The notes beneath the pieces are model-generated. The model was not told the DNA's origin, did no database searches, and saw only the letters and a list, made by a program, of their open reading frames with translations. The position numbers and the translations under genes are program-made. From Spirochaetota bacterium (lineage in GTDB: Bacteria; Spirochaetota; UBA4802; UB4802), in the NCBI GenBank assembly GCA_040756435.1, contig JBFLZD010000014.1, forward strand, positions 1 to 62,868: a stretch of 62,868 bases of DNA, given 5' to 3'. This document shows, one piece after another, positions 2,116-43,761 of this stretch (position 1 is its first letter; each line of letters opens with the position of its first letter).

Positions 2116-5100
2116 ATGAAATTAACTGATATATCCGTTCAACGGCCAATAACCATCACAATGCTCTACATTGGTATAATTGTGGTGGCGATAGTAAGCT
2201 ATGTAAAAATTCCATTGGATTTATTCCCTGACATTGAGTTCCCGGTTGCTGTTGTCTTTACAGAATATCCCAATGTTGGGCCAAAAGAGATAGAAAGTAC
2301 TGTAACTCGACCACTGGAAGAGGCATTGTCATCGGTTAATAATATTGATACCATAACGTCAACATCAAAAGAAGGCTTATCGATGATTATTGTCAAGTTT
2401 ACCTGGGGAACTGATATGGGCCTTGCAGTAAGCGATATGCGGGAACGTATTGACATCCGAAAACGATTTTTACCTGATGAAGTGAAGAATCCTGTTGTAT
2501 TAAAGTTTGATGTATCAATGATGCCTGTTGTTATGCTTTCGGTTACCGGTCCAAAGGACTTAGCGTATGTAAAAAAATATGCTGAGGATAATTTAAAAAA
2601 TTTATTTGAGCAGACCGATGGTGTGGCTGCTGCATACGTCAGTGGTGGGCAAAGCTACGAAGTAAAGGTTGAGCTTATTAAAAACAGGATAGATGCATAT
2701 AAATTAACTATCGACCAGATTATACAGCTTTTGGCGGCAGAAAACTTAAATATTGCTGGCGGTGACGTAAAAACACCATACATGAAATATACCTTGCGAA
2801 CTCAGGGCGAATTCAAGTCTCTTGATGATATTCGTAATGTAGTTGTTACCGTAAAAAACGGAACTCCTATTTATGTAAAAGATATAGCGCGTGTTTACCT
2901 TGCACCTGCTGATGTGAAAGAGATTGTGCGTCTTAATGGCGAAAACGGTGTTATTTTACGTGTGCAAAAGCAGTCGGATAAAAATACTGTTATTGTTGCT
3001 CGTAATATTTTAAAAAAGGCTGAAGAAGTACGTAAAACCTTGCCTAAGGGGATGGATATACAACCATTCTTCAATGCAGCTGAATTTATAGAGCTATCAA
3101 TATCCAATATGATAAAAAATGCTGTTGAAGGGGCTTTGATAGCAATTTTAGTTGTCCTTGTTATATTACGTAATATGCGGGCTGCACTCATCATGGGGTT
3201 ATCAATCCCTATTTCCATAATAACGTCGTTTGTTCTTATGTATTTCTTTGACCTATCGCTTAACATGATGTCAATGGGTGGGCTTGCCATTGGCGTTGGC
3301 ATGCTCATTGATAACTCCATTGTAGTACTGGAAAATATTTTTAGGTACCGTGAAAAAGGAGCTCGTCCCAATGAAGCGTCAAAGTTAGGTGCCGATGAGA
3401 TGGGGATGGCTATTACGGCGTCTACATTAACAAACCTTGTTGTTTTTGTACCATTTTTATTCAGCCAGGGGCTTGCTGTACAGCTGTTTAAAGATATGGC
3501 GCTTACTATTACGTTTTCAATGCTCAGTTCATTGGTTGTTGCTCTTTCACTTGTACCAATGCTTGCCGCAAAGTTTATTCCCCGCATTGAACATACCTAT
3601 ACAGGGAAACTATCATTTTTGCAGCCGCTATTTGATAAAAGTGAACAATATTTTATGCGATTGGAACGTTTTTATGGAAAAGTCATCAACTGGGCGCTTG
3701 ACCACAGAAGGCGCGTTATCCAATATGTGGCAATTTCATTTGTGATTGGGCTAATTATGATCCCTATTGCCGGTATGGAATTTATGCCTGAATATGATGA
3801 TGCACAGCTTACTATTGTTGCCAAGCTCCCTGTGGGTACCAATTTGGAAACAACTGAATCCGTTATGAAGATGATTGAAAAACGAGCACTGGATGTCCTT
3901 AAAAAGGAAGAATATGTAGTGGTTTCTGTACGTGCCGGTTATGGAGAGGGATTTACCGCAGCGTTTGGCGAAACCACCGATTATACTGGCAAGATTGAGA
4001 TGCGATTAACACAGCCAAGCAAACGCAAACGTTCAAAAGATGAGATACGGCAGGCGTTGCGTGAGGCTTTCAAAGGGATACCTGGCGTTACATTTAACTT
4101 TTCACTGCAGGGTGATGCGGGTGGTAGAATCTTAGGAATGGGTGGAGCTACTATTTCAATTGAAGTATATGGGTATGATTTTGAGAAATCTTCACAGTAT
4201 GTTGAAGATATCCGCAATGCCATTAAGAATATTCCAGGATTAAAAGATATTGATGTTTCCCGGGAAGAAGGATTGCCCGAAAAAGTCATAGTTGTAAACC
4301 GTGAAAAGGCTTCCAAGATGGGAGTCAATGCCTACCAGATTGCAAATCTTATAAAAAATAATGTTGCTGGATACCCAGCAACCCGATACCGCTTTGAGGG
4401 CGATGAGTATGATATTAATGTTCGTTTACGAGAAGCTGACAGAGAAACTATTGAGCACATAAAATCAATTGAGATAAATACTCCAATTGGAAAGCGAGTG
4501 CCAGTAGGAAACTTAATTGATATTGTGACTAAATCCGGACCATCAACCATTGAGCGAAAAAAACAGGAACGTGTTGTGTATTTAAACTGTAAAGCTGAAG
4601 GCAGGGCTTTGAGTGCTGTGGTAAATGATATTAATAATGCTATCAACAAACTGCCCAAACCGGCCAATTTTGATGTGGTGATTGCAGGTGCTTATAAGGA
4701 TATGCAAGACACATTCAAGGATTTACTCCTTGTGCTTGTAGTTGCTATGGTGCTTACCTATGTTATTATGGCAGCGCAGTTTGAATCGCTACTGAGGCCA
4801 TTTATTGTTATGTTCAGTGTGCCAACTGTTATTTTTGGGGTGTCACTATTTTTATTCCTTACCGGTACAACGTTTAATGTAGTAACATTCTTGGGTGTCA
4901 TTATGCTGGTTGGTATTGTGGTAAATAATGCGATAGTTCTTGTGGATTATACTGATATCTTGAGGAAACGTGGCTACGGCATACGCGAGGCACTGGTTGA
5001 AGCCGGCACTAAACGACTGCGACCCATTATGATGACTACCCTTACTACGATACTTTCACTTATACCAATGGCTTCAGGATTGGGCGAAGGATCGGAATTG

Positions 5101-40480: not shown

Positions 40481-41938
40481 ATGTGTGGACAACAATTTAT
40501 TTATAATCTGTATGAACTGTTTCAGGAACAGGCACAAAAATTTCCTAAGGAAATTATGCTATATTATAACGGTGTGCCTGTGCTGTATAAAGACGCTCTA
40601 AGTAACGTGCATAAAATTGCACATGCACTGCGACGGCTTGGAGTGCATAGTGGTTCCACCGTGATTGTGCAAACCGGAAATACGCCATATTTTGTATATA
40701 GCTTTTTTGCCATTTTACAGTGCAATGCAATTCCTGTTCTGGTAAATCCTTTGGCCAGGCAGTTTGAATTGCACCATTATATTACTGTTACCCAACCTGC
40801 ATGTATCATTACCACAAGCTTTATGGCTGACAGACTGATGCAGTATGGTATTGTCAGTGATAATCATGCTATCATTACCACAGATGAAAACAGTACCTAT
40901 ACATCCATGGATTCAATTGTTAGTGGAAATACTGGTGACAGCCACTATGTTCAGGAGAACAATGATGCTGCAGCAATAATATTTACTTCAGCAATGGATG
41001 GGTGTGCGTTAGGTGCAGTTTTAACCCATTATGGCATTTATCAAAGTGCAAAAGCAGTGGCTCAGATGATGCCTGGACACGCTCTTGTTTCAGTGGCCGT
41101 GCTTCCCTTATTTCATGCGTTTGGTCTTACCTCTTCGCTGGTGGTGCCACTTTTGAAAAATATCCCTATTGAGTTAGTTGAAAAATTTTCACTAAAAAAA
41201 TTGATGCGGGTACTGTCCAATAATGAAGTCAGGTCATTTGTTGGAGTGCCGGCCATGTATGCCATCATGAAAGGGCTCTTTGAGCGTAATAACAATTTTG
41301 AGCATGTGCAGTTATGGGTCAGCGGTGGCGATTATCTACCCCTTACTCTTCAGAAATGGTATGCTGAGCGGCAGGTGGATATACGCCAGGGGTATGGATT
41401 AACTGAAGCCTCGCCCATTGTAAGCTGGAATATGCCAGGAATTGACAATAAAATTGGCTCTATAGGAAAACCAATGCCTTATAATGAGGTTCGTGTGGTG
41501 GACAATAATGGCAGTAATGTACCTGCTGGCGTTCATGGGGAAATTATTGTGAAGGGAATGAATGTGATACACAATTACTATCATAATCCGCAAAAAACCA
41601 AAGAATATATTAAAGATGGATGGTTGTATACCGGTGATATTGGGTATTATGATAATGATGGCTATTTGTTTATTTCCGGGAGAAAAAAGGATATGGTATT
41701 AAGAAATGGATACAATGTATATCCTAAAGAGGTGGAGCGGTTACTATCATATCACCCTGATATAGCAAGTGTACGGGTATCAGGACATGTTGAATTTCTG
41801 GGCGATAGTACCAGAGAGCGGCTTATTGCTCGTATAAAGCCAAAACAGAGTACAGTATTATCCCCGGATAAGCTCAAGCTATGGTGCAGTGAGAATATTT
41901 CCATATATAAAATTCCTGATGAGATAGTAATAGAATAA
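40481..41938 (+). CDS. AMP-binding acyl-CoA ligase-like protein, atypical
   Basis: 485 residues of the ANL superfamily. GYGLTEASP, YTGDIGYYDNDGYLFISGRK and the hinge region place it among acyl-CoA ligases. Two catalytic elements are atypical. The phosphate-binding loop (usually SGTTGxPKG) reads TSAMDGCALG at 169-178, without the lysine. The protein ends at YKIPDEIVIE, so the C-terminal segment with the adenylation lysine is missing. It may be an acyl-AMP-independent or binding-only member, or part of a subfamily with altered loops. A leftward RNA terminator abuts its stop codon. Confidence 0.82.
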   Translation: MCGQQFIYNLYELFQEQAQKFPKEIMLYYNGVPVLYKDALSNVHKIAHALRRLGVHSGSTVIVQTGNTPYFVYSFFAILQCNAIPVLVNPLARQFELHHYITVTQPACIITTSFMADRLMQYGIVSDNHAIITTDENSTYTSMDSIVSGNTGDSHYVQENNDAAAIIFTSAMDGCALGAVLTHYGIYQSAKAVAQMMPGHALVSVAVLPLFHAFGLTSSLVVPLLKNIPIELVEKFSLKKLMRVLSNNEVRSFVGVPAMYAIMKGLFERNNNFEHVQLWVSGGDYLPLTLQKWYAERQVDIRQGYGLTEASPIVSWNMPGIDNKIGSIGKPMPYNEVRVVDNNGSNVPAGVHGEIIVKGMNVIHNYYHNPQKTKEYIKDGWLYTGDIGYYDNDGYLFISGRKKDMVLRNGYNVYPKEVERLLSYHPDIASVRVSGHVEFLGDSTRERLIARIKPKQSTVLSPDKLKLWCSENISIYKIPDEIVIE

Positions 41939-42031
41939 AAAAAAGAGGTAATCGGGCGATTACCTCTAGCTCTACAAAAGCATAGCGGAATACTTTGGAA
42001 GGAAATTGTTGTGTACCAGGATTTTCCCAGC
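41937..42031 (-). ncRNA. Candidate leftward small RNA with own promoter and terminator
   Basis: On the minus strand a promoter-like element (TTGACG, 17 bases, TATATA overlapping TATAAT) is followed about 85 bases later by a perfect terminator. AGAGGTAATCG and CGATTACCTCT form 11 base pairs around a two-base loop, and then eight T. The T tract exists only in the leftward direction; rightward the stem is followed by AGCTCTAC. No protein frame of credible composition fits. Predicted length about 95 nt. Ends are inferred. Confidence 0.5.
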
Positions 42032-42036
42032 TCACT

Positions 42037-42069
42037 ATTATATATAAGCAAATCGTATGCCAGCGTCAA
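42037..42069 (-). promoter_or_regulatory. Predicted promoter of the leftward small RNA
   Basis: Minus-strand TTGACG (plus-strand 42064-42069), 17-base spacer, TATATA (42041-42046) overlapping TATAAT (42037-42042). Confidence 0.5.
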
Positions 42070-42244
42070 GTAAAAAATTTGTAATTTTTTATAAAAACAG
42101 AAATTTTTTTTAATTTTAAGCATATTTAATACAATTTTAAAGAATATTTAGCAATTTAAGGTGAAAAAAAAGACTTCCAAAGCTTAATATATGTACAAGA
42201 AGCCTTATAATGTCATATTTTTATAGTGGATTAATACGTTTTAT

Positions 42245-42260
42245 CCATACAAGTGTATGG
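42245..42260. promoter_or_regulatory. Palindrome CCATACA-AG-TGTATGG
   Basis: Perfect 7-base arms with a 2-base centre. A second, shorter palindrome of the same style (CCGTA-CA-TACGG) lies at 42285-42296. Neither is followed by a T run, so a protein-binding operator is more likely than a terminator. No target gene is adjacent. Confidence 0.4.
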
Positions 42261-42732
42261 AATTTCGGACATATGTTTAGTATACCGTACATACGGACTA
42301 TTTTATTCAATGTGATGAATATATTTTCAATGAGATGAAATCATTAACGCAAGAAATTGCACTGAATTAGGGCCTGTTACCATAAAAGATTTTATTTTAG
42401 AATACAAGTTTTTTAAAAAAATGATGGGTGAGGATAGGTGCAGATTCAAGAATAAAGGACAACACAAAATAAAAAATATTTTTTTGGCAATTTCTTTTGT
42501 TGTCACATGGACAAACGAAATTGCATAGTGGGATAAGGGCAATCCTTTATAAATTGCATCTAAAGAGGAAAATTAATCTTGATAATGTATATATGAATAA
42601 CTGTACGTCCACGGAAGTCTAAATGATGCGCTTCTAACGTGAAGTTACAGATAATACAAAGCACATACAAAATAATTGCTTGACTAATGAATTTTTGTTC
42701 CATACTATTTTGGAAAAGAAAGAGGTAAAGGT

Positions 42733-43761
42733 ATGCAACAACTCATATCTAAAAAAGGTGATTTGCTTGATACAAATGGTCAACTCATAGAAAAAGGTTA
42801 TTCAACCACCCTTGTGAGGACGTATAATCCTGAACATGTTTCCCTGTATCCTGTTTCCTGGTTAAACAAATTACGTATCAAGGAGTGGGATTATTATGGC
42901 ATAACCACTAAAGATTATTTTGTTTCAGCTACTATCTCACATATTGGATATGCAGGGCTTGTGTTTGTGTATTTTATTGATTTTAAAACAAAACAGTATA
43001 TTGAAGATACACTCATAACGCCACTAGGTAAAGGGTTTACGCTTGGGCGGTCAAGTGATGACGATAGTTACTTTAAAAAAGATGATATAACCTTTGCTTT
43101 CCGAAAAAAGGGTATTGAACGTGAGATATATGTTAGCTGGCCTCAATTTGGTAAAGGGAAGGGTTTTCACGCACACTGGATAATACGGCAAACACCACAC
43201 GATTCAATCGTTATGATGACACCTATTGGAAAGAAACGATTTTACTACAATCAAAAAATTAACTGCATGCCTGCGCGTGGTGCGTTTTTACTGGGTGAAC
43301 AGGAATATGGCTTTGACTTTGGTAAGGCACTGGCAACGTTAGATTGGGGAAGAGGTGTGTGGGAATATAAAAGCTTCTGGAATTGGGCAAGTGCTTCATG
43401 GTTTTTACCTGATGGGACTCCGTTTGGTTTAAATTTAGGTCAAGGTTTTGGTGATTTATCATATGCCACAGAAAATTGTTTCTTTATCAATGGGCGTATT
43501 CATAAATTAGATACGGTCACATTTAATTATGATAATACAAATTTTATGAAACCCTGGTATTTTGGATCCAATGATGGCAGGTTGAGTTTAACGTTTTCAC
43601 CTTTTTTTGAAAGAATAGCAACATCCAACCTTCTGGTTATAACAAGTGAGGTGCATCAGCTGTTTGGTATATACAATGGCTTTGTTATCGATAACAGCGG
43701 TAAAAAAATACAGGTAACCAACATTATTGGATGGGCCGAAGAACATCATGCACGGTGGTGA
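42733..43761 (+). CDS. DUF2804 family protein
   Basis: 342 residues without signal peptide. The pattern of a DUF2804 protein is recognisable: an N-terminal zinc-free start with GDLLDTNGQLIEKGYSTTLV, aromatic-rich strands (REIYVSWPQFGKGKGFHAHW), a central DWGRGVWEYKSFWNWASASW block and a late GLNLGQGFGD block. The fold resembles lipocalin-like hydratases, but no activity is established. GAGG precedes the start. It heads a cluster with a DUF4912 protein and a GH57 enzyme, 10 bases before the former. Confidence 0.8.
   Translation: MQQLISKKGDLLDTNGQLIEKGYSTTLVRTYNPEHVSLYPVSWLNKLRIKEWDYYGITTKDYFVSATISHIGYAGLVFVYFIDFKTKQYIEDTLITPLGKGFTLGRSSDDDSYFKKDDITFAFRKKGIEREIYVSWPQFGKGKGFHAHWIIRQTPHDSIVMMTPIGKKRFYYNQKINCMPARGAFLLGEQEYGFDFGKALATLDWGRGVWEYKSFWNWASASWFLPDGTPFGLNLGQGFGDLSYATENCFFINGRIHKLDTVTFNYDNTNFMKPWYFGSNDGRLSLTFSPFFERIATSNLLVITSEVHQLFGIYNGFVIDNSGKKIQVTNIIGWAEEHHARW

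Follow-up and report, generated by a model that had tools for sequence, protein, structure and literature searches.

A candidate sigma-54-dependent small RNA family and its sigma-70-driven paralogue in an uncultured order of Spirochaetota

GlmY, one of the paralogous small RNAs (sRNAs) GlmY and GlmZ of Enterobacteriaceae, has overlapping sigma-54 and sigma-70 promoters (PMC7073468), and the enhancer consensus of GlrR/QseF is TGTC-N10-GACA (PMC4987338, PMC8745638). The Qrr sRNAs of Vibrionaceae are sigma-54 dependent and stand under enhancer-binding proteins (PMC10162802). MmgR, an Hfq-dependent sRNA of ~77 nt with an anti-Shine-Dalgarno motif and a U-tailed terminator, is activated by NtrC, and both RpoD and RpoN promoters are listed for it (PMC7143759).

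Here, we describe an RNA gene (type A) in a 62,868-nt stretch of DNA from a Spirochaetota bacterium (the window), together with a paralogue (type B). Their twin arrangement is most like that of GlmY/GlmZ, without homology. In both cases there is a paralogous pair and a sigma-54 promoter with an enhancer-binding protein, putative here; the TGTC-N10-GACA enhancer resembles the TGTCC-N8-GGACA-like dyads of the new locus, and the overlapping sigma-54/sigma-70 promoters of GlmY recall type A in the genus of the window. However, types A and B are shorter, belong to a different phylum and have an unpaired linker in common, not a RapZ-type fold, and the Rfam families of GlmY and GlmZ were matched neither in the window at gathering level nor in the locus at relaxed E. 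MmgR and suhB (alpha-r8 family, RF00519) are likewise small sRNAs with an anti-Shine-Dalgarno motif, a U-tailed terminator and an RpoN promoter. The best Rfam score of type A was indeed to RF00519, but we rejected membership at 20.8 bits against a gathering cut-off of 41, with an alignment consisting mostly of the terminator and a gapped linker. With the Qrr sRNAs, type A has sigma-54-dependent control in common, but there was no Rfam match and no sequence relation was seen. By every sequence test made, type A is outside the GlmY, Qrr and MmgR families. No Rfam family matched at gathering level in the window, and at relaxed E the locus gave only sub-threshold matches. Judged by these comparisons, type A is a previously undescribed sRNA family of a known general kind, apparently the first to be reported from this uncultured order. 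So far as the literature searched shows, it is also a clear spirochaetal candidate for an sRNA controlled by sigma-54 and an enhancer. The parallel with GlmY/GlmZ without homology would suggest that the division of a single RNA function between two copies, one signal-controlled and one sigma-70-driven, evolved more than once.

A conserved RNA gene facing a ligase gene

Type A lies in the gap between an AMP-binding ligase gene and a DUF2804 gene (42733-43761), and the gene coordinates bore out the 794 bases initially given for this gap. The features of the locus are collected in table 1. The only minus-strand open reading frame across it (41752-42123, 123 aa) had no Pfam match and no conserved reading frame was found in the sRNA locus, in agreement with the initial annotation, in which no protein fitted the element. 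A 221-base query matched all four congeners (4/4) at 91-95% identity and, at 74-86%, nine genomes from other families within the order; the cross-family matches were confined to the stretch from the promoter through the T tract. Among five congeners, invariance was 98% in the RNA, 88% in the promoter and 57% in the enhancer region, and 20% in the 181-bp spacer between the latter two. A covariance model run on 393 genomes of the phylum recovered type A in 14 genomes from families f1, f2 and f5 of one uncultured order; elsewhere it gave only weak matches. Four of the weak matches of the model were the type B paralogue. The named relatives are uncultured Spirochaetota assemblies. Because of its conservation among congeners and across families, we concluded from these alignments that the type A locus is a real gene. 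Thus, the unannotated leftward sRNA gene initially proposed was recovered with its 5' hairpin, linker, terminator and promoter conserved across three families, and the covariance search in relatives suggested at that time found it in 14 genomes.

Several other matches were discarded. Matches to the core pattern beyond the order (Borrelia-like genomes and others) had no hairpins or terminators and were about as frequent in a reversed control; model matches at L168 and L169 in family f24 were unrelated terminators, and a match in G131 had no core. Separately, a 21-base exact copy of ATCCTGGTACACAACAATTTC, spanning the 3' arm of the type A hairpin and the start of the linker, was observed at L015:3212-3397 (G005:C446:10297-10317), in a genome without a recognisable type A RNA.

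Table 1. Features of the type A locus, with positions in the window
Feature	Position	Strand	Remarks
AMP-binding ligase gene (PF00501)	40481..41938	+	Convergent neighbour of type A; kept beside type A in all three families
Type A sRNA gene, ~100 nt, +1 inferred at 42036	41936..42036	-	Conserved block in 14 genomes; covariance model E 1e-19 to 1e-26
Intrinsic terminator, 10-11 bp stem and T tract	41937..41967	-	Hairpin/T-tract sequence; RNAalifold
Core of mostly unpaired linker, CCUUCCAAAGUAUUCCGCUA	41983..42002	-	Common to type B paralogue
5' hairpin, GUGaGCUGGGA-AAA-UCCUGGUaCAC	42011..42035	-	RNAalifold consensus
Sigma-70-like TTGACG-17-TATATA, overlapping sigma-54 box	42041..42069	-	As such only in the genus of the window
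Sigma-54 -24/-12 box, TGGCATACGATTTGC	42048..42062	-	GG 42061/42060, GC 42049/42048; fixed distance in type A loci
Enhancer dyad 1, TGTCCGAAATTCCATACA on minus strand	42254..42271	.	
Enhancer dyad 2, TGTACGGTATACTAAACA on minus strand	42274..42291	.	Exactly 20 bp from dyad 1

Folding of the predicted RNA is better than that of shuffled sequences (z -3.6). Its predicted 5' hairpin is nearly invariant among members, and the linker had a mean unpaired probability of 0.64-0.87 in four members; the predicted pairing region consists of the linker core plus flanks (42014-41979). The terminator hairpin at 41967-41944 of the minus strand, AGAGGTAATCG-CC-CGATTACCTCT, was verified as the perfect 11-bp inverted repeat initially described, which sterically forms a 10-bp stem with a 4-nt loop. 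The eight T counted earlier comprise seven past the stem and the T that closes it, and the T run is found in the leftward direction only, as had been stated, the plus side having none. One terminator pair showed a compensatory change (U-A to A-U). Terminator prediction on the minus strand, an initial suggestion, gave this hairpin as the sole terminator-like site within 2.5 kb.

The ligase stop codon (41936-41938) lies on the T tract of the sRNA, right at the terminator as first noted. The two genes are convergent and overlap by only ~2-3 nt of ligase coding sequence; thus, the label "antisense to a ligase 3' end" was overstated, and conservation falls on the linker rather than on the overlap. 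From this layout, a trans-acting role appears to fit type A better than an antisense role. We regard as very unlikely a local cis role, in which the leftward transcript would interfere with or terminate against the convergent ligase mRNA. The abutment of terminator and stop codon and a convergent ligase gene in all three families that carry type A would suit it; however, the ligase coding sequence does not include the conserved part, the hairpin has no T run in the rightward direction, and type B carries the same linker at unrelated loci.

Promoter class and upstream dyads

The initial annotation had described a TTGACG-17-TATATA/TATAAT promoter. TTGACG (42069-42064) and TATATA (42046-42041) are indeed separated by 17 bp, whereas the spacing to TATAAT is 21 bp. 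The promoter type, by contrast, had been misread: the upstream bases kept in the cross-family alignment are TGGCA...TGC, a -24/-12 box, and the element conserved across families is thus a sigma-54 box accompanied by an enhancer far upstream. This box (GG-N10-GC) was present in 14/14 type A loci versus 0/15 type B loci. At the type A loci it is situated 60-62 bases from the core and matches the consensus at 10-12 of 12 bases; 164 sites match at this level in the window genome (4.07 Mb of strand). The box sets +1 at 42036, immediately before the conserved hairpin. Could the RNA instead be a leftward sigma-70 sRNA transcribed from TTGACG-17-TATATA? We give this little credence. In five congeners the element matches at 9/12 positions and is correctly spaced from the same +1, but it is missing in the other families, whose nine loci retain the sigma-54 box and the enhancer alone, and by itself it occurs at chance level (9 such sites in the region versus 10.0 +/- 3.7 in shuffles). 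Taken together, the type A promoter is apparently of the sigma-54 class and enhancer dependent.

In all 14 type A loci of the three families, a tandem pair of 18-bp dyads (TGTCC-N8-GGACA) with a spacing of exactly 20 bp was observed 213-284 bp upstream; every pair (14/14) scored no lower than the highest of 60 dinucleotide shuffles of the region in question. In 2.03 Mb of the window genome, the pair in the window scored 32.8 bits versus 19.2 for the next best; the matrix was trained on these same sites, and the gap is a measure of uniqueness, not of significance. The second-best pair falls inside a coding sequence (window position 3894), and no other gene with a convincing dyad enhancer was found in these 2.03 Mb. 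In sequence terms, the tandem dyads are arranged like a site for an enhancer-binding protein. With 15-18 of 20 positions matching per pair, they have the length and ends of TGTC-N10-GACA, a likeness to the GlrR/QseF site that we take as a lead, not an identification. RpoN genes were present in 43/46 genomes of the order, that of the window included, and Hfq genes also in 43/46 (G000:C63 in the window genome). There were eight PF00158 matches in the window genome (G000), and the cognate enhancer-binding protein was not singled out among these ~8 candidates.

A paralogue with the same linker

A search with the linker pattern CTTCCAAN{2,5}WTCCRCTA revealed a second RNA, type B, in 15 genomes of families f1, f2, f4 and f5, including the genome of the window (contig C70:1802-1878); eleven genomes carry both types. 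Neither this paralogue nor the enhancer figured in the initial annotation. The single-stranded linker CCUUCCAA-n-UCCGCUA is their only clearly shared part, and a model of type B alone recovered most type A loci, as the type A model recovered several type B loci. The 5' hairpin of type B differs in sequence from that of type A; 100% of its cells are paired in the aligned members, four of six pairs show changes on both sides, and its covariation score was reached by 0/500 shuffles. The type B terminator, GACGATTCC-N4-GGAATCGTC, is also different. The promoter is of the sigma-70 form TTGAC-17-TAnnnT in 14/15 loci and degenerate in one. As for gene order, type B is found near an SNF symporter and hemA-type region in f1 and beside an MFDI gene in f5. 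Because the linker is unpaired and shared by paralogues with different hairpins, it is best read as a pairing or protein-binding site.

Two type B matches stand apart. The copy in G028 (L121:3754-3817, G028:C66) runs to the end of its contig, where its linker is repeated in inverted orientation; this is probably an assembly artefact. At G009:C44:70066-70124, a genome in which the linker pattern gave only type A, the type B model matched weakly (E 7.9e-4), and this may be the missing paralogue.

Predicted targets and mode of action

A promoter of its own and an intrinsic terminator flank the conserved non-coding RNA, as in an sRNA gene, and the genomic marks of Hfq-dependent sRNAs, an Hfq gene and a T7-T8 terminator tail, were found; type A is probably Hfq dependent. 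Complementarity to the type A linker was scored in 1,697 predicted leaders (56% of the genome), with 2,500 shuffled linkers for comparison. The best target was a coiled-coil gene of 383 aa (G000:C19:51584), which had only coiled-coil Pfam matches, below cut-off, and whose C-terminus is nuclease-like by eye. Its leader, GCATAGCAATACTTTAGAGGGAAGGAAATTGTGACTTATG, pairs with the linker over 28 bases covering the Shine-Dalgarno region (alignment score 44, -34.6 kcal/mol; net complex gain -30 kcal/mol), and 0/2,500 shuffled linkers did as well on any leader. The orthologous leaders keep the site at -29.8 kcal/mol in G003 (0/2,500) and -25.0 kcal/mol in G004 (2/2,500), with diverged sequence farther upstream. 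Because the site covers the Shine-Dalgarno region and is kept in these two genomes, the predicted action on this gene is most likely translational repression. The gene is present in some congeners only and is a pseudogene in G004; thus, it cannot explain the order-wide conservation of type A. In 1,642 non-redundant leaders, short linker seeds (7-9 nt) showed no significant enrichment, and a broad regulon is therefore unsupported.

We consider it likely that type A is a trans-acting sRNA driven by sigma-54 and an enhancer, whose linker blocks target translation by pairing, probably with Hfq. The anatomy, conservation, promoter class, enhancer, paralogue and complementary leader were read from the sequence, and from them we infer transcription, Hfq binding, repression and a signal. 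A putative enhancer-binding protein would bind the two dyads ~220-255 bp upstream and activate leftward transcription from the sigma-54 promoter, and the transcript would end at the hairpin and T tract. The unpaired linker, also present in the sigma-70-driven paralogue, would be the active part, pairing with the ribosome-binding region of target mRNAs, with the coiled-coil gene as one predicted target. The enhancer motif, the linker and the target leader are directly testable predictions.

Alternatively, the RNA may bind a protein, as a decoy like GlmY on RapZ or as an Hfq/CsrA-type sponge, in which case the linker would be a protein site and type A would control the fate of type B. The conservation of the linker sequence between different hairpins, the lack of seed enrichment in leaders, and the control of one paralogue by an enhancer and of the other by sigma-70, as in GlmY/GlmZ (PMC7073468), are consistent with such a role. 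However, GlmY is without the pairing site of GlmZ, whereas types A and B share their linker, and a conserved 28-bp match to an mRNA leader is unexpected of a protein site; we hold this alternative to be rather improbable, and translational repression through linker pairing to be the preferred reading. A bolder version of the latter, which we rate as doubtful, is a two-input riboregulator new to science, in which sigma-54 and sigma-70 paralogues with swapped structural modules around one pairing sequence would silence accessory or multicopy genes of this genus by covering their start sites: the coiled-coil nuclease-like gene, IS200-like Y1 transposases and a 150-aa multicopy family.

IS200-like transposases (Y1_Tnp, PF01797) occur at L140:6499-7095, L182:6460-7056 and L220:15057-15653, with copies in G001-G003 and ~12-16 matching places in each of G000, G001 and G003. 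At their starts, the sequence GGAATACTATGGCACGGAAATTGCGTGTA is similar to the sRNA antisense; the start also mimics a sigma-54 box. Several copies scored 32-40 against the linker. Because the copies are homologous, the site overlaps the coding sequence and 20/2,500 shuffles reach 38, these starts are only suggestive as targets. A 150-aa protein family (MNIETTTC...) without a Pfam match has at least 10 copies in 2 Mb of G000, at L136, L140, L180, L189 (L189:15878-16330), L196, L202, L219, L222, L225 and L247. Most of them have a common leader, ATACTTTGGAGGAAA, in which 9-11 bases correspond to the linker antisense, the copies of this family, like those of the transposase, not being independent of one another.
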